From the NCBI GenBank assembly GCA_012034805.1, contig JAAUOP010000006.1, positions 1 through 64,000 on the forward strand: a stretch of DNA of 64,000 bases. Reading direction: 5' to 3'. The notes under the pieces were generated by a model. It was not told the origin of the DNA. It searched no databases and was given only the letters and a program-made list of their open reading frames with translations. Shown in pieces: positions 3,120 through 31,968 of the stretch. Numbering within the stretch: position 1 is the stretch's first letter; each line of letters begins with the position of its first letter. The DNA is from Synechococcales cyanobacterium CRU_2_2 (GTDB lineage: Bacteria > Cyanobacteriota > Cyanobacteriia > PCC-9006 > JAAUQQ01). A program made the position numbers and the translations under genes.

Positions 3120-4643
3120 GTGAGCAGACCTCTCACCGTTTCCCCTTCCCCTTTCGATCTCCCTCCAAAAACCATGGCCCACGTCCCTCCCAGCTTTCAG
3201 CCCCCTGGCCCGATTATCTTTGGCACCGATGGCTGGCGCGGCATCATTGCAGAAGACTTCACCTTTGAGCGGCTTTATCGGGCCGCTTGTGCAGCGGCTC
3301 GGGTGCTGAAGGAAGTTTATGGCGAGTCCACGGGCAGCAACACCGTCATCATTGGCTACGATCGCCGCTTCCTCTCCGAAGAATTTGCCCACACCACCGC
3401 CACTGCCGCTAGAGCTGTTGGCCTCGATGTGCTCATGTCTGAGAGCTATGCGCCGACACCGGCCTTTAGCCTCGCGGCCAAGGACAGAAATGCCCTGGGT
3501 GCACTCGTGATCACGGCCAGCCATAACCCCGGTACCTACTCCGGCCTCAAAATCAAGGGAGCCTTTGGCGGCTCGGTGCCCCCGGAAGTGACCCAGAAAG
3601 TCGAAGCACTGCTGGCCGAAGGGTATTTGCCCCAGGCATCTACCGAGACCGCAGCACCCGCCGTTGGGTTTGAGACGTTTGAACCTTGGGCTCCCTATTG
3701 CGAAGCCCTGGGCAAAAAAGTTGATCTGGGCGCGATTCAGGCGGCGGTGAACGGCGGTCAATTACAAATTTTTGCCGATGTGATGTACGGTGCGGCGGCG
3801 ACTGGGTTGGAGCGCATTTTGGGCGTACCCGTGACCGAATTGCATGGCGATCGCGACCCGCTCTTTGGCGGCGGTGCCCCCGAGCCCCTGCCCCGCAACC
3901 TCGCGGTGGTGATGGATCGCATTCAACATCGCGACAACCCATCCCTGGCCGTGGGGTTTGTCTTTGATGGCGACGCCGATCGCATTGCCGCCATCGACGA
4001 AACCGGCGAATTTTGCAGCTCCCAAGTTCTCATTCCAATTTTGATCGAGCACCTGGCGGTGCGACGCGGCCTCACCGGCGAAGTGATCAAAACCGTCAGC
4101 GGCTCAGACTTGATGCCCAAGGTGGCCGAGCTATTTGGCCTATCGGTGTATGAAACTGCGGTGGGCTACAAGTACATCGCCGATCGCATGTTGACCACCC
4201 CGGTTCTAATTGGCGGCGAAGAATCCGGCGGCATTGGCTACGGCAGCCACATCCCCGAGCGCGATGGACTCCTAGCGGCGCTCTACGTGCTGGAGGCGAT
4301 CGTCCAGTCGGGCCAGGGCTTGGCCCAGCTCTATCGCAGCTTGCAAGAACGGACGAATTTCGTTGCGGCCTACGATCGCATCGACCTTCCCTTAGCCAGT
4401 TTGGCAGTGCGCGATCGCGTCCTCGAAGCCCTCCAGCACAACCGCCCCAGCGAAATCGCCGGTCAAGCCGTGCTGGACTGCATCACCATCGATGGCTACA
4501 AATTCCGCCTAGCCGACCAGCGCTGGCTGATGGTTCGCTTCAGCGGGACTGAGCCCCTATTGCGCCTATACTGCGAAGCGGCGACGCTGGAGCAGGTCAA
4601 CGAAACCTTGGCCTGGGCTAGGGATTGGGCCGGTCAGTTTTAG
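3120..4643 (+). CDS. Phosphoglucomutase/phosphomannomutase (alpha-D-phosphohexomutase) family; start may be ATG 3174
   Basis: FGTDGWRGIIAEDFT, VITASHNPGTYSGLKIKG (phosphoserine loop), FDGDADR, GGEESGG, RFSGTEPLLRLY. Confidence 0.92.
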   Translation: MSRPLTVSPSPFDLPPKTMAHVPPSFQPPGPIIFGTDGWRGIIAEDFTFERLYRAACAAARVLKEVYGESTGSNTVIIGYDRRFLSEEFAHTTATAARAVGLDVLMSESYAPTPAFSLAAKDRNALGALVITASHNPGTYSGLKIKGAFGGSVPPEVTQKVEALLAEGYLPQASTETAAPAVGFETFEPWAPYCEALGKKVDLGAIQAAVNGGQLQIFADVMYGAAATGLERILGVPVTELHGDRDPLFGGGAPEPLPRNLAVVMDRIQHRDNPSLAVGFVFDGDADRIAAIDETGEFCSSQVLIPILIEHLAVRRGLTGEVIKTVSGSDLMPKVAELFGLSVYETAVGYKYIADRMLTTPVLIGGEESGGIGYGSHIPERDGLLAALYVLEAIVQSGQGLAQLYRSLQERTNFVAAYDRIDLPLASLAVRDRVLEALQHNRPSEIAGQAVLDCITIDGYKFRLADQRWLMVRFSGTEPLLRLYCEAATLEQVNETLAWARDWAGQF

Positions 4644-25805: not shown

Positions 25806-26609
25806 ATGTATCAACCCTTAGGCTACGGGCCGGATGGCCCACTGCCGCCATCACAAACATTGCCGACAATGTACGATTTGCCCAGTGAGTCTGCGGGGGA
25901 GCCAGGATTGCCGGATTTGTTTCACTTGAGCCAGCCGCGTTTGCTGGATGAAACGCTGCTGTCGCCCACCTATCCCGGAGACCAGCGGTTTACAGCAAGC
26001 GATCTTAATCTCTATTACGATGCCCGCCATTCACTCTGGCACAAGCGTCCGGATTGGTTCCTCGTGCTCGGCATTGCACCCGCTTCAAACCAAGCGGAGC
26101 TGCGGCTGAGTTATGTTATGTGGCAGGAAGCCGTGGCACCGTTTTTGGTCGTCGAGTTGTTGTCACCGGGAACGGCGGATGAGGATTTAGGCAAGACATT
26201 GCGGGAGGTGAACCGACCGCCGACGAAATGGCAAGTGTATGAGCAAGTGTTGCGGGTGCCCTATTATGTGGTGTTCGATCGATATGAGTCACAGTTTCGG
26301 TTGTTTGGCATGAGGGGGATGCGGTACGAAGCCATTGAGTTGGTGGGCGAGCGGTTTTGGTTTGAGGAGCTGGATCTGGGCTTGGGGGTTTGGTCTGGGG
26401 TGTATGCGGGAACCGATGGGCGATGGTTGCGGTGGTATGACGCGGCGGGGGATTGGGTTGCAACGCAGGAGGAGCGGGCCGAGTCTGAGCGGGAGCGGGC
26501 CGAGTCGGAGCGGGTGAGGGTCGAACAGGTGATGGCGGAGTTGGCGGTGGAGCGAGAGCGGGCTGAGCGTCTGGCGGCAAGGTTGCGGGAGCTGGGAATT
26601 GAGGAATGA
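25806..26609 (+). CDS. Uma2 family putative endonuclease with AER-rich coiled-coil tail
   Basis: RPDWFLVLGIAP...PFLVVELLSPGTADEDLGKTLREVNRPPTKWQVYEQVLRVPYYVVFDRY. Confidence 0.88.
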   Translation: MYQPLGYGPDGPLPPSQTLPTMYDLPSESAGEPGLPDLFHLSQPRLLDETLLSPTYPGDQRFTASDLNLYYDARHSLWHKRPDWFLVLGIAPASNQAELRLSYVMWQEAVAPFLVVELLSPGTADEDLGKTLREVNRPPTKWQVYEQVLRVPYYVVFDRYESQFRLFGMRGMRYEAIELVGERFWFEELDLGLGVWSGVYAGTDGRWLRWYDAAGDWVATQEERAESERERAESERVRVEQVMAELAVERERAERLAARLRELGIEE

Positions 26610-26751: not shown

Positions 26752-27503
26752 ATGCGCAAAATTCGTTCTTTCCTTTCTGGGTATTGTTATCACACAACCG
26801 TTCGGTGTAACAATCGAGATTTTTGTTGACTCGATCCCATTGTCGGGAGGTGTTGCTGTATGCGATCGAACAATGCAAGGCGAAGTATGAGTTTAAGCTT
26901 TATGGCATCTGCATTATGAGTAATCATGTGCATTATTTGATGCAGCCGCTGGTGCCGAAGGAGATGCCGAAGATTATGCATTTCCTCAATTGGTATAGTG
27001 CGATGTGTTTTAACCGGATGTTGAATCGGACGGGCCATTTTTGGGAGAAGCGGTACCATGCGGTGGGTTTTCCGGAAGATGACCAGCGGCGGGCGTTGAA
27101 TACGTTGCGCTATATCCATGCGAATCCGAAGGCGGCGGGGATGCAGCGGGGCTTTTTCTACGATTTCAGCAATTATGGCAGTTATGAGCGGTTGACGCAG
27201 GATGGGTTGACGGAGTGGCATCCGGCCTTCTTGTCAATGGCAGCGACGTTGGAGTTGTGTGCGGCAGCGTATCGGAGGTTTTGTGAGCGGTATCAACCGA
27301 AGCCGAAGTCGGAGCGGAGAAGCCATTGGGGGAGCAAATTGTTGGCGAGGATTGTCGCAGAGCGGCGGGCGAGGCGACGAAAGTACAAAATTAGCCCCGG
27401 ACAAAAATCGCTTTGGGAGGATTGGGATGAACCGTTTGAGGAAATAAAAAATGTTGCCGAAAAATTTAAGGCAGCGAATCAATTTCCTCCCTATCCTAAA
27501 TAA
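26752..27503 (+). mobile_element. REP-associated tyrosine transposase (RAYT, IS200-like Y1), frameshifted at T5 (26820-26824)
   Basis: MRKIRSFLSGYCYHTTVRCNNRDF + extra T gives LLTRSHCREVLLYAIEQ...YGICIMSNHVHYLMQP (HxH motif)...YIHANPKAAG. Confidence 0.88.
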
Positions 27504-27625
27504 AAAAATAACCCAAATTTCTATTTTTTTAAGGAGGTGAAAAAGATTGTTGGTGCCAGGTAAAGAAATGCTGGGAGGCTGATTATGCCGTAGAAATTTG
27601 TTCTTGATAAAAGCTTCAAAAATTC

Positions 27626-29983
27626 CTAGGACTGAGTCGTGCTACAGTTCACAAGTCGCTGCGCGAGAGAAGAGAAGCAATAATCGAAGGTATAAAAATC
27701 GATAAAAATCAATCCCCCCGGATTCGGCCGAGGTAATTCTCCCACCGGAGAAAGAGAGGGTGTCTTTTGGAGGTCTGAGTAGTTCACGTATTTTTTTGCT
27801 TGTTTATTCTGCCAACCTACTTTAACGCAAAAACGATCCCAGTCTTTGCCCAAAGACATTGGACTCCCGCATTCCTGCCAAATCTTTTTTTGGACCGAAA
27901 ACCCAAAATGTCCATTGCTGGCTTCTACCCAAAGGCGATCGATCGTCCGTAAGTCTTCACAGGGAAAATTCTCCAAATCCTCCGGGTCAAACCATTGCCC
28001 TTCTTCCTTATTCACCGTCGTAATCATCAGCCGATAGGTTTCTTTATCCGCTGCTTCCCACTCGCCCGCCTTCAGCAGCCTTTCTAGTTCCCCATAGCGA
28101 GACACTTGCACCTTGGGCTTGAGCGCCTCTAGCTTCTGGACAATAGCCGGATTCAAGGTTCGCTTAGTCTCCTGATAACAAGCATAGGCCAAATTATTCG
28201 CCCCTTGCGCCATCGCCGCCTCGATCAATACCGTCGGATCCTTCGCCTGAGCCGCATAGAGCAAAATGGTCTGCCGCCACCAGGATTGATTCTCCCCGTC
28301 GGCATCCGCATCCTTGAGAAACTCATAGAGCAGAACTTCTTGATCAGTCTCTTTAATTTGCCGAGCGGCCAAAAATTCCTGAAAACTCAAATGAGAAAAC
28401 TCATAGCCCTCCAGCCCTTGGCGCACAATCAACTCACTCACATTCACCACCTGCCGCAAAAATTCCTCAGGTGGAATACCCTCGTGGTTTTGTTCCTGTA
28501 AGGTTCTGCTGAGTAACTCCAGCAAGTCCTCTTCCTCAATCAGCCGTTTTTCCTGCCGCATCATCTCCAGCGCAATCGCTTGCAAGACCAATTGCCGCTC
28601 CTCTGGAGACAGGGGCAAAACAATCCCCCTTGCTGCCGGTCGTTTGCGCAACTGCAACGAACAAATATCCTGATAAAGCTCCACCCGCTGACGGGGCAAC
28701 TCTACCCCCGGATCGCTACGGTGATAGGTCGCCAATAGATTTAGCAGCAGCGGATTTTTCGCCAGATCGGCCAGCTCGGGTCGCTCAGGATTGCGGATTT
28801 GTTCCAGCAGACTCTCTGCATTGCGTCTGGCATCCCGCTGTACCTCCGGGGTGCCTCGACCGGCGCGATCGAGCTTTTCCTGGGACAAATACCACTGATG
28901 CACAAACTGGGTTTGTTGATCCGCCGTGAGCGGCCTGACCCACACCTTCGTGCGCAGGGCATCCACCCGCCCAGAATCCTCAAAAATTTCCCGGTAGGCG
29001 GTGGGCCGAGAGGTCAGAATGAACACCGAACGATCGAACTGGCGCATCTGCTGGGTGATCCATTGGCTAAAAATAATCCGCTCGTTTTCTGGAATTTCAT
29101 CAAATCCATCCATCATCACCAGCACCTTACCCCGCGCTAGCATGTCTCGGAACCAATTTTGGGGCAGCTTGGAGAGGCGATCGCGCTCACTATCAATTTC
29201 CGCCATGACCCGCAAATGCTGCTGCATGAACAGATCCGGCAAACTCAAAGGTGACTCCTGGGCGATGTACTTGCGGTATTGCCGCAGGGGCAAGAGGACC
29301 GGAATTAACCCTGGCACATCATACTTGCGGTATTGCTTGGTGCCATAGATATAGGCCAAATGCTTCAGCAACGTTGTCTTGCCAAACCCACCCCAGGCCA
29401 CGATCGCCAACTGTCGATAGGCCGGATTTCGCTCAGCCTCCGCCAGAAAATCCCAAATGCAGTGATGGCGAAGATCCTCTAGATTCTCTGCCGTCTGTCG
29501 CCTGCGCTGAAACCCAACCGCCACCGCGCTCGAATCTAGCTCCAACGGGACAAACACTTGCTCCAGCATGGGCGTCATGATGCGATCGCGCTTGCCCATT
29601 CCCTCGGATTTATAATCCCGACAATCTAATGCCTGACAGAGCAAATAGGCATCCTCTGCCCGCGAGACCTTGGCAAAAAGCTGGTCAATCCCGCCATCGA
29701 TCGCCTGGTCGATCGCCTCATCAATGCGCTTACCAGTGTTCTCCAAGCGCCGCCGATTGCCTGCATCCACGGGCTTTAGCAAACTGGCTCCGTAGGTGAT
29801 GCCCAAACCGATTCCGGCGGAGGCGATCGCCTGGGGAATATCGCTCTCCTTAAACAATGACCAAAATGCCCCAAACCCTCCTGCCCCGACGCCCCCAGTC
29901 ATCAGCACTTTGGCCAAAATGCCTCCCAGCTTGTCTGGCAACGACTCTGGCTGTGGCGACTGATCGGGCGGAGGATTCGACAT
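27626..29983 (-). CDS. NACHT STAND NTPase with N-terminal membrane segment and C-terminal GUN4 domain
   Basis: VAWGGFGKTTLLKHLA (Walker A), VLVMMDGFDEIP (Walker B), C-term YGELERLLKAGEWEAADKETYRLMI...FPCEDLRTIDRLWVEASNGHFGFSVQKKIWQECG (GUN4). Confidence 0.9.
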   Translation of the reverse strand: MSNPPPDQSPQPESLPDKLGGILAKVLMTGGVGAGGFGAFWSLFKESDIPQAIASAGIGLGITYGASLLKPVDAGNRRRLENTGKRIDEAIDQAIDGGIDQLFAKVSRAEDAYLLCQALDCRDYKSEGMGKRDRIMTPMLEQVFVPLELDSSAVAVGFQRRRQTAENLEDLRHHCIWDFLAEAERNPAYRQLAIVAWGGFGKTTLLKHLAYIYGTKQYRKYDVPGLIPVLLPLRQYRKYIAQESPLSLPDLFMQQHLRVMAEIDSERDRLSKLPQNWFRDMLARGKVLVMMDGFDEIPENERIIFSQWITQQMRQFDRSVFILTSRPTAYREIFEDSGRVDALRTKVWVRPLTADQQTQFVHQWYLSQEKLDRAGRGTPEVQRDARRNAESLLEQIRNPERPELADLAKNPLLLNLLATYHRSDPGVELPRQRVELYQDICSLQLRKRPAARGIVLPLSPEERQLVLQAIALEMMRQEKRLIEEEDLLELLSRTLQEQNHEGIPPEEFLRQVVNVSELIVRQGLEGYEFSHLSFQEFLAARQIKETDQEVLLYEFLKDADADGENQSWWRQTILLYAAQAKDPTVLIEAAMAQGANNLAYACYQETKRTLNPAIVQKLEALKPKVQVSRYGELERLLKAGEWEAADKETYRLMITTVNKEEGQWFDPEDLENFPCEDLRTIDRLWVEASNGHFGFSVQKKIWQECGSPMSLGKDWDRFCVKVGWQNKQAKKYVNYSDLQKTPSLSPVGELPRPNPGGLIFIDFYTFDYCFSSLAQRLVNCSTTQS

Positions 29984-30070: not shown

Positions 30071-30685
30071 CTACAGCCTCGGCATCAAATCCCCCAAGCT
30101 CAGATTCAGCTCAGGCAACAAAGGCGATCGGATTGCCTCCCCCAAGCGATACTGCACCTGGTCATAAAACCGACCCGACAAAACATTAACCGTCAGCGTC
30201 GGCTGCTTCGGGTCTCCAATATAACGAATCCCACCCAACCCACGAAAATCAACAATCCAATATTCAGCAATCCCCATCAGCGCATACTCCTCCACCTTCC
30301 GCGCATAATCATTCTCCCAATTCGTACTCACCACCTCCACCACCAACTTGATCGATTCTCCATAGACAATAATCGGCTCCTGCTGCCAAAGGGGTTCCTG
30401 GGCCAGCGCTCGTTCATCCAACACAATTACATCCGGACGGCGGGCCGTTGCTTCACGGATATTGGGACGGAGAATGCAGGTTTTGGGAATTAGAAACGGC
30501 AGATCCTGGCGATCGATCTCAACACTCAATTTGCTCGCCGTTTTCCCAGCAACCGCCTCATGGGGCCCCGTTGGTTCCATTTCGATCAATTCTCCATCGA
30601 CCAACTCGTACTGTTCATGATCGCCATGCTGAGCAATGAACCGTTCAAAGGTGAGAAGCTGGGCAGGCATGTAAGTCATCGCCAC
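30071..30685 (-). CDS. Uma2 family putative endonuclease
   Basis: YELVDGELIEMEPTGPHEAVAGKTASKLSVEI...RRPDVIVLDE...KLVVEVVSTNWENDYARKVEEYALMGIAEYWIVD. Confidence 0.92.
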   Translation of the reverse strand: MAMTYMPAQLLTFERFIAQHGDHEQYELVDGELIEMEPTGPHEAVAGKTASKLSVEIDRQDLPFLIPKTCILRPNIREATARRPDVIVLDERALAQEPLWQQEPIIVYGESIKLVVEVVSTNWENDYARKVEEYALMGIAEYWIVDFRGLGGIRYIGDPKQPTLTVNVLSGRFYDQVQYRLGEAIRSPLLPELNLSLGDLMPRL

Positions 30686-30750: not shown

Positions 30751-31968
30751 CTAGGCAATACTGCCGCGTTTGCGAGCTTCCTTGAACGAGGTGCCGACAT
30801 TGCGCAAACCCGCCTTCACCATTTGTCGCTCTAGCATCGCAAAAAAACGAGCGCGATCGCCCCCCCGCACCACCGCCTGATTGTGCGCCTCCGCCAAAGC
30901 CACCGGATAGCCGTAACCCTTGTGCACCTGGCCCAACACCAAACTCAGCGCCGAACCCAACAACGTCGCATCTTCCCCCACCCAGGCCGGAAACTCCAGC
31001 CGTGCGATCTCTGCGCCCACATGGACATAGCAAAAATAAATCGTTTGTTGTAGACCATACTCCGCCAAAATCTTGGCCGAACTGCGCCACAGCGGCCCCC
31101 GCTCTCCCGGCCGCAGCATCGTAGACCACAGCGTTACATCTCGCAGCGGCGTAAAAACCTGACAGGGTGCGCCATCACCTCGGCCTTCGCAGTGGGTTGC
31201 ACAATCTGGGAAGTCGTAGGGGCAAGATTGCAAGCGCAAAAAATTGAGCGACTCGGTGCTGCGTGAGGCGCTGACATAGCCAACAAATGGCACCCGCAGC
31301 GCCTGCAGCTGCTCCCAGGCTTCGAGAATCGGGGGCAAGATGCGATCGCGCGCCTCCCCCGGCAATCCATCCAAAAACCAGTAAATCAACGAGCCATCGA
31401 CCAGGGCTAAGGTTGGAGCCAGGGTTGAAGCCAGGGTCGCAAGTGAAGCCTGGGGCGGGCTTGAAGCTATCCCCGCCGCCAGTTCTGCCAGCATTTCCAC
31501 CTCGGTAACGGTTCGCCGATAGCCCATCCATTCCTCGGTACCGATGCCCCATTTGCGTGCCCCGTAGAGGTCGTCGGATTGGTAAAAGACCTCGGGCAGG
31601 CTGTCGAGCAACGGTTGGCGGTTTTGACCATAGTGCAAGACGACGCGACCAATGTTGATTAGATAACAGTAGGCAATTTCGTGGTGGCTGGGGGCGATTT
31701 GGGAGCCATCGGTGGCAAGGACGGTGTGCTGGGCAGGTGGGGTTGCGATCGCAACTTTTGTCTCCATTGGCTCCATTGGCTCGGCGGCGGTGAAGCTGAG
31801 GCGATCGCGCCACTCCTGTCCCATCTGCACCAAGATTGCCTGGTGCTGGGCGGCCTGGGTGACCAAATGCTGGGCTCGCTCCAACCTCGTCCGACTCGCC
31901 GCCGCTTCCTGGGCAAGGTGGTTACTAATCCCCTGCATTTGTAGTGCCAACTTAGTCAGATCCAGCAT
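30751..31968 (-). CDS. NurA-domain nuclease-like protein
   Basis: TVLATDGSQIAPSHHEIAYCYLINIGRVVLHYG...LALVDGSLIYWFLDG...VGYVSASRSTESLNFLRLQ. Confidence 0.82.
   Translation of the reverse strand: MLDLTKLALQMQGISNHLAQEAAASRTRLERAQHLVTQAAQHQAILVQMGQEWRDRLSFTAAEPMEPMETKVAIATPPAQHTVLATDGSQIAPSHHEIAYCYLINIGRVVLHYGQNRQPLLDSLPEVFYQSDDLYGARKWGIGTEEWMGYRRTVTEVEMLAELAAGIASSPPQASLATLASTLAPTLALVDGSLIYWFLDGLPGEARDRILPPILEAWEQLQALRVPFVGYVSASRSTESLNFLRLQSCPYDFPDCATHCEGRGDGAPCQVFTPLRDVTLWSTMLRPGERGPLWRSSAKILAEYGLQQTIYFCYVHVGAEIARLEFPAWVGEDATLLGSALSLVLGQVHKGYGYPVALAEAHNQAVVRGGDRARFFAMLERQMVKAGLRNVGTSFKEARKRGSIA

Follow-up and report, generated by a model that had tools for sequence, protein, structure and literature searches.

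What does a GUN4 domain, known from the Mg-chelatase cofactor Gun4, do at the C-terminal end of an NLR-like ATPase? The question is raised by a gene in the window (the whole 64,000-nt stretch analyzed here, from contig JAAUOP010000006.1 of Synechococcales cyanobacterium CRU_2_2), for which the original prediction proposed a membrane-anchored switch that might sense a tetrapyrrole. Cyanobacterial fusions of GUN4 to kinase, caspase, trypsin, and TIR domains are described in passages of Kaur 2020 (PMC7159879) and of a metacaspase survey (PMC2853523), and the passages of the former already hold the idea that fused GUN4 domains act as tetrapyrrole sensors.

Pfam profile searches and the Walker motifs confirmed the fusion of NACHT to a C-terminal GUN4 domain, with both scores of the 785-aa protein exceeding the curated Pfam cut-offs. 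The gene is composed as follows.

27626..29983, minus strand: NACHT-GUN4 gene, encoding an NLR-like STAND ATPase (785-aa open reading frame, Pfam and fold matches)
29780..29935, minus strand: N-terminal two-segment hydrophobic hairpin, residues 17-68, a possible membrane insertion or effector part (hydropathy)
28892..29389, minus strand: NACHT ATPase domain, residues 199-364, with Walker A and Walker B (PF05729, E value 1.5e-10; Walker residues invariant in 59 homologues)
27728..28102, minus strand: GUN4 domain, residues 628-752 (PF05419, E value 6.5e-33; match to the solved GUN4 fold)

Walker A reads AWGGFGKTTLL and Walker B reads VLVMMDGFDEIP, and G199, G201, K202, T204, D292, G293, D295, and E296 are invariant across the 59 homologues. 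An AlphaFold2 model built from these homologues (mean pLDDT, 82.7) has an NLR-type fold that matched NLRC4, NOD2, and NLRP3 over approximately 600 columns, with NLRC4 and NOD2 as the top matches (E value, ∼1e-11), while its GUN4 part separately matched solved GUN4 structures. No GUN4_N repeat domain was detected in the protein. The domains and fold matches support an NLR-like NACHT switch with GUN4 in the sensor position. The N-terminal hydrophobic segment is also present but modest, its best two 19-residue Kyte-Doolittle windows scoring 1.39 and 1.23 and its model pLDDT falling below 50, so membrane anchoring is at most putative. A PADLOC match to PD-T4-6 covered only model positions 244-448, at the GUN4 end of the protein; with the GUN4 end alone matching, rather than the full length, this gives no evidence of that defense system. 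Genes for Uma2-type putative endonucleases, which PADLOC reports as candidate PDC-S03, lie on both sides of the locus (25806-26609, plus strand; 30071-30685, minus strand), and a NurA-domain protein is encoded upstream of the NACHT-GUN4 gene (30751-31968, minus strand).

Sister NACHT proteins with the same N-terminal part illuminate the GUN4 position. One of them (L033) has an FGE-sulfatase (lectin-fold) domain replacing GUN4 and another (L040) has both domains, which marks the GUN4 position as a sensor slot and suggests, as far as the sequences go, that sensors may be swapped on a single NACHT scaffold. NACHT-GUN4 proteins occur patchily across cyanobacteria: some significant match was found in 58 of 59 genomes of relatives, approximately 17 of which have NACHT-GUN4 genes, and 80 further homologue loci were retrieved. 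This scattered distribution agrees with the accessory character that had been proposed for the gene. A plasmid search for close copies of the locus returned none of full length. The host genome, a draft of 332 contigs and 88.9% completeness, has eight GUN4 loci. One of them, a separate gene on contig C261, encodes a true Gun4 that has an N-terminal domain of its own; the others are three NACHT fusions (one cut by a contig edge), caspase, kinase, and ankyrin fusions, and one further protein. The ankyrin-repeat protein carrying a GUN4 domain lies at 3743-5791 of L015 (host contig C154).

Whether the fused domain could sense a tetrapyrrole depends on its pocket. Bilin binding by Gun4 involves the LxNxLR motif with Asn211, and porphyrin binding involves Phe196 and Arg214 (PMC10156173, PMC8967248); Gun4 paralogues without the LxNxLR motif have been proposed not to bind bilin (PMC10156173). 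Where the true Gun4 of the host reads GHLP-LFNQLRGVR (GHLPLFNQLRGVR), the window protein reads GELP-RPNPGGLIF (GELPRPNPGGLIF), and Asn alone coincides in the alignment; RPNPGG thus stands in place of LFNQLR, and the motif with Arg214 is absent. The LxNxLR site is the exact point at which the homologues cease to align. A fused GUN4 that binds porphyrin or bilin, gates the NACHT switch, and reports the photosynthetic state would be in keeping with the retained GUN4 fold and much of its core, and with the proposal made for fused GUN4 domains in general in the passages of Kaur 2020 (PMC7159879). We nevertheless consider it improbable, as unrelated sequence replaces the LxNxLR/Arg214 region and motif-less paralogues are the proposed non-binders of bilin (PMC10156173), although porphyrin could still be bound through other residues. 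Loss of the ligand pocket had been named beforehand as grounds for abandoning the original prediction, and judged on sequence that loss has largely occurred; with the bilin and porphyrin residues falling within a hypervariable stretch, tetrapyrrole sensing is not supported.

The stretch and the DNA that follows it are located as given here.

27676..27730, minus strand: hypervariable stretch of 55 nt, beginning right behind the GELP codons at the site occupied in true Gun4 by LxNxLR and Arg217 (comparison with homologues)
27553..27675, minus strand: conserved 123-nt DNA element, TCTCTTCTCTCGC...TTACCTGGCAC, abutting the stretch (sequence conservation)

Beyond G[HE][LF]P, approximately 90 homologues have sequences unrelated to one another, and their C-termini fall into three flavors. 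Across 151 element-bearing GUN4 genes, in which GUN4 is fused to NACHT, kinase, caspase, or TPR, the stretch ranges from 13 to 179 nt in length. Among 73 genes, pairs with a core identity of 80 to 89% had variable-stretch identities of 0.10 to 0.54, compared with 0.42 for shuffled sequence. The contrast is sharpest in two genes of one genus (L314 and L315; g84), which are 96 to 97% identical in the core, 97% identical in the element, and identical at 28 of 28 fourfold sites but have a stretch identity of 0.45; the means over 37 pairs were 0.91 for the core, 0.88 for fourfold sites, 0.82 for the element, and 0.43 for the stretch. In BLAST alignments of close copies, the breaks recurred at two boundaries, query positions 351 and 403. 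Neutral drift is therefore excluded, since close relatives retain flanks of ∼97% identity and fourfold sites of 100% around a stretch that is random, and the hypervariability goes beyond what drift produces. Change is not constant, as the stretch was unchanged in one pair from two species with a 98% identical core. In a single pair (L319 and L322) the stretch begins with 13 shared nt and diverges thereafter, as might be seen if replacement proceeded from the element side.

The stretch is rich in G (0.38 to 0.42) and T (0.28 to 0.34) and poor in A (0.16 to 0.18) and C (0.11 to 0.12) at all three codon positions in the same 151 genes, in contrast to the gene core with its normal codon-position differences, and GGG makes up 0.42 of the Gly codons in the stretch versus 0.15 in the core. 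Equal composition at all codon positions together with the excess of GGG indicates that the bias acts at the nucleotide level. All stop codons contain A, and a G/T-rich stretch would therefore rarely close the frame, though open reading frames were required to be open, which partly selects for stop-free stretches. In the window gene the stretch is only moderately rich in G and T (35 of its 55 nt), and in the host paralogue on C30 a stop precedes the element.

Localized change at the end of a signaling gene recalls diversity-generating retroelements (DGRs), and a run of NNY codons in the window tail suggested one. Rewriting of the tail by a DGR, or by gene conversion from silent cassettes, would suit the cyanobacterial DGRs that diversify the C-terminal domains of signaling proteins (PMC7517822), the DGR-type FGE-sulfatase domain of the sister NACHT proteins, and the three reverse transcriptases encoded elsewhere in the host genome. 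It is nonetheless highly improbable: the length of the stretch is variable, its bias is toward G and T with the adenine-only pattern absent, the recurrent neighbors of element-bearing loci include no reverse transcriptase, and a search of two genomes found no template or donor copy of the window stretch or of the stretch of L073. The latter stretch (143 nt, 3609-3751) has a translation, FEFAHSSFKEFFTAMEAV, that resembles the NACHT-internal motif YEFSHLSFQEFLAA; a templated origin, considered on account of this resemblance (FEFAHSSFKEFF), was dropped, as its own genome holds no DNA source. The GHLP boundary or the TTCTCTTCTCT start of the element is duplicated over short lengths within the stretches of L088, L059, L097, L052, and L051, which suggests slippage or template switching.

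The element explains the three C-terminal flavors. At the DNA level they derive from a single string that is translated in three frames and continues beyond the stop codon, so that the protein-level motifs LASRLVNC, LFSRIETC, and LLSHRDL were rejected as separate entities. The start of the element encodes the C-terminal residues and a stop codon in any arriving frame, and the remainder is non-coding. Of 390 cyanobacterial genomes searched with a DNA pattern of the first 33 nt, 110 contained the element, and the reversed pattern matched none; 102 copies were retrieved from the forward matches, of which 90 end a GUN4-coding open reading frame (30, 26, and 34 in the three frames) and 12 have no open GUN4 frame at the element. 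Conservation within those 33 nt is partly by construction, whereas the pattern had no part in the conservation from 33 to ∼65 nt or in the homologue set, which was found by protein. The element has a core of ∼65 nt and a near-fixed length of 123 to 124 nt beside a transposase, to which its second half is tied. Four copies are present in the host genome. No pairs were obtained in a consensus RNA structure or hairpin of the element, and a structured RNA is thus not supported; an Rfam search around the locus returned nothing above chance. At L190, L204, and L188, two or three tandem GUN4 domains follow a kinase domain or TPR repeats, and the last GUN4 ends at the element.

The only recurrent neighbor of a specific type at element-bearing loci is a transposase, and conserved operon partners of any other specific type were sought and rejected. 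The copy in the window is the following.

26752..27503, plus strand: convergent gene for a Y1 (IS200-like, RAYT-type) HUH transposase (PF01797, E value 8.4e-14)

This copy has a one-base frameshift near its start, which may be real or an assembly error (ATG 26752 is out of frame with the open reading frame 26823-27503), and it is 70% identical from residue 23 on to an intact homologue (P0002) with the HUH motif SNHVHY. The association with the element is solid: a transposase lies near 25 of the 102 copies, convergently downstream in all 25, and the 3′ motif TACCTGGCAC is found in 23 of these 25 copies versus 20 of 76 others. A transposase elsewhere in the genome had no effect on preservation of the motif, so action in trans was rejected, and at the genome level the two co-occur, as linkage would lead one to expect: of 53 genomes with the transposase, 42 also have the element (odds ratio, 15).

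Whether the transposase is a cause is less clear-cut. Because 68 of the 110 element genomes lack a close transposase relative, because no effect in trans was seen, and because the window copy is frameshifted, it may be a passenger. As a passenger, it would belong to a selfish IS200-like unit that keeps landing, or persists, at the 3′ ends of GUN4 genes, the tail being functionless junction debris and the element a remnant of the unit end. Such an account would fit a 3′ motif that is bound to the adjacent transposase and fades in its absence, the degraded transposase copies in the host genome, and related transposases that adjoin unrelated genes. We regard it as rather unlikely, given that the first ∼65 nt of the element persist, conserved, even without a transposase, that 90 of 102 copies keep the stretch in an open frame, and that junction debris should drift with its flanks instead of being replaced where fourfold sites are identical.

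More distant transposases of the family stand, with TACCTGGCAC, near cyanobactin-like, prochlorosin-like, and beta-barrel genes whose ends are apparently variable. Cyanobactin-like precursors (MTKKNIRPQQVAPVERE...core...PFAGDDAE) with differing cores occur at L292 (1009 and 1696), L295, L296, and L294, followed ∼120 nt on by TACCTGGCAC and a Y1 transposase (oriented with the transposase on the minus strand). At L307 a prochlorosin-like leader (LSEEQLKGVAGG) and its G-rich core region lie beside one of these distant family members, and at L309, L310, L311, and L312 beta-barrel-like open reading frames end in [NH]R[DN][VI]RVHD and an apparently variable tail, with TACCTGGCAC and a transposase downstream.

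Collectively, the locus is probably best read as encoding an NLR-like switch in which a localized process, apparently needing no reverse transcriptase, diversifies the sensor loop. The hydrophobic N-terminal part would serve as effector or membrane anchor, the NACHT ATPase would drive nucleotide-dependent oligomerization, and the C-terminal GUN4 would be the sensor, its scaffold kept and its bilin/porphyrin loop exchanged for the hypervariable stretch. Each gene copy would thereby present a different binding surface to a putative ligand, as in conflict receptors. Diversification would proceed by DNA-level block replacement at a fixed site between the GHLP/GELP codons and the conserved element. 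The new sequence, being G/T-rich, would contain few stop codons whatever the frame, and an acceptable short C-terminus would be provided by the element in all three frames. The most likely source would be the adjacent Y1 HUH transposase or a host repair process acting at the element; the foremost candidate for opening the site is the transposase, although it may plausibly be a passenger. A more far-reaching version, which we advance tentatively and hold well short of an even chance, is a cyanobacterial diversity system independent of reverse transcriptase. With help from a Y1 HUH transposase at the conserved element, sensor genes for NLR-like, kinase, and caspase GUN4 proteins would receive at their 3′ ends untemplated G/T-rich sequence whose length is random, related transposases would do the same for ribosomal peptide precursors, and the frame-tolerant element would make nearly any insert usable.

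If this is correct, NLR-like and kinase or caspase sensors in more than a quarter of the sampled cyanobacterial genomes would vary their recognition surface by a dedicated non-retroelement route, and the puzzling abundance of fused GUN4 paralogues would be recast as a testable receptor hypothesis. It would also provide a link to the hypervariable cyanobactin and prochlorosin peptides and a natural means to generate libraries of sequences at a single fixed position. A literature search, with bioRxiv and many subscription papers outside its scope, found no paper on the hypervariable GUN4 end or the element.

Among known systems, Gun4 (PF05419) shares the GUN4 fold and core with the window protein, which differs in its fusion to a NACHT switch and in the hypervariable stretch that replaces the bilin/porphyrin loop. 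Known GUN4 fusions, as presented in passages of PMC7159879 and PMC2853523, have the same kind of architecture with GUN4 as a regulatory domain, and those passages make no mention of the hypervariable end, DNA element, or transposase linkage seen here. Animal NLRs and bacterial NACHT proteins likewise combine NACHT with a C-terminal sensor, but theirs is LRR, WD40, or TPR where ours is GUN4, and any defense role of the window protein is putative. DGRs resemble the GUN4 stretch in localized diversification at protein C-termini, often of signaling proteins, while the stretch lacks a template repeat and a nearby reverse transcriptase, varies in length, and is G/T-rich and not adenine-directed. The transposase has the Y1 HUH domain of RAYT/TnpA-REP enzymes (PF01797, as above), but the high-copy palindromic REP sequences are absent, with four element copies and no consensus hairpin. 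TnpA-REP transposases beside lanthipeptide genes of marine picocyanobacteria, known here from the title of a preprint (Laurenceau 2022) cited in PMC10783134, are, as far as that title conveys, likewise Y1 transposases beside genes with hypervariable C-terminal parts; the present targets are instead sensors of the NLR-like, kinase, and caspase types, with a defined 123-nt element that is read in three frames. Read as untemplated writing, the process would be a bacterial parallel to the junctional diversity of antigen receptors.
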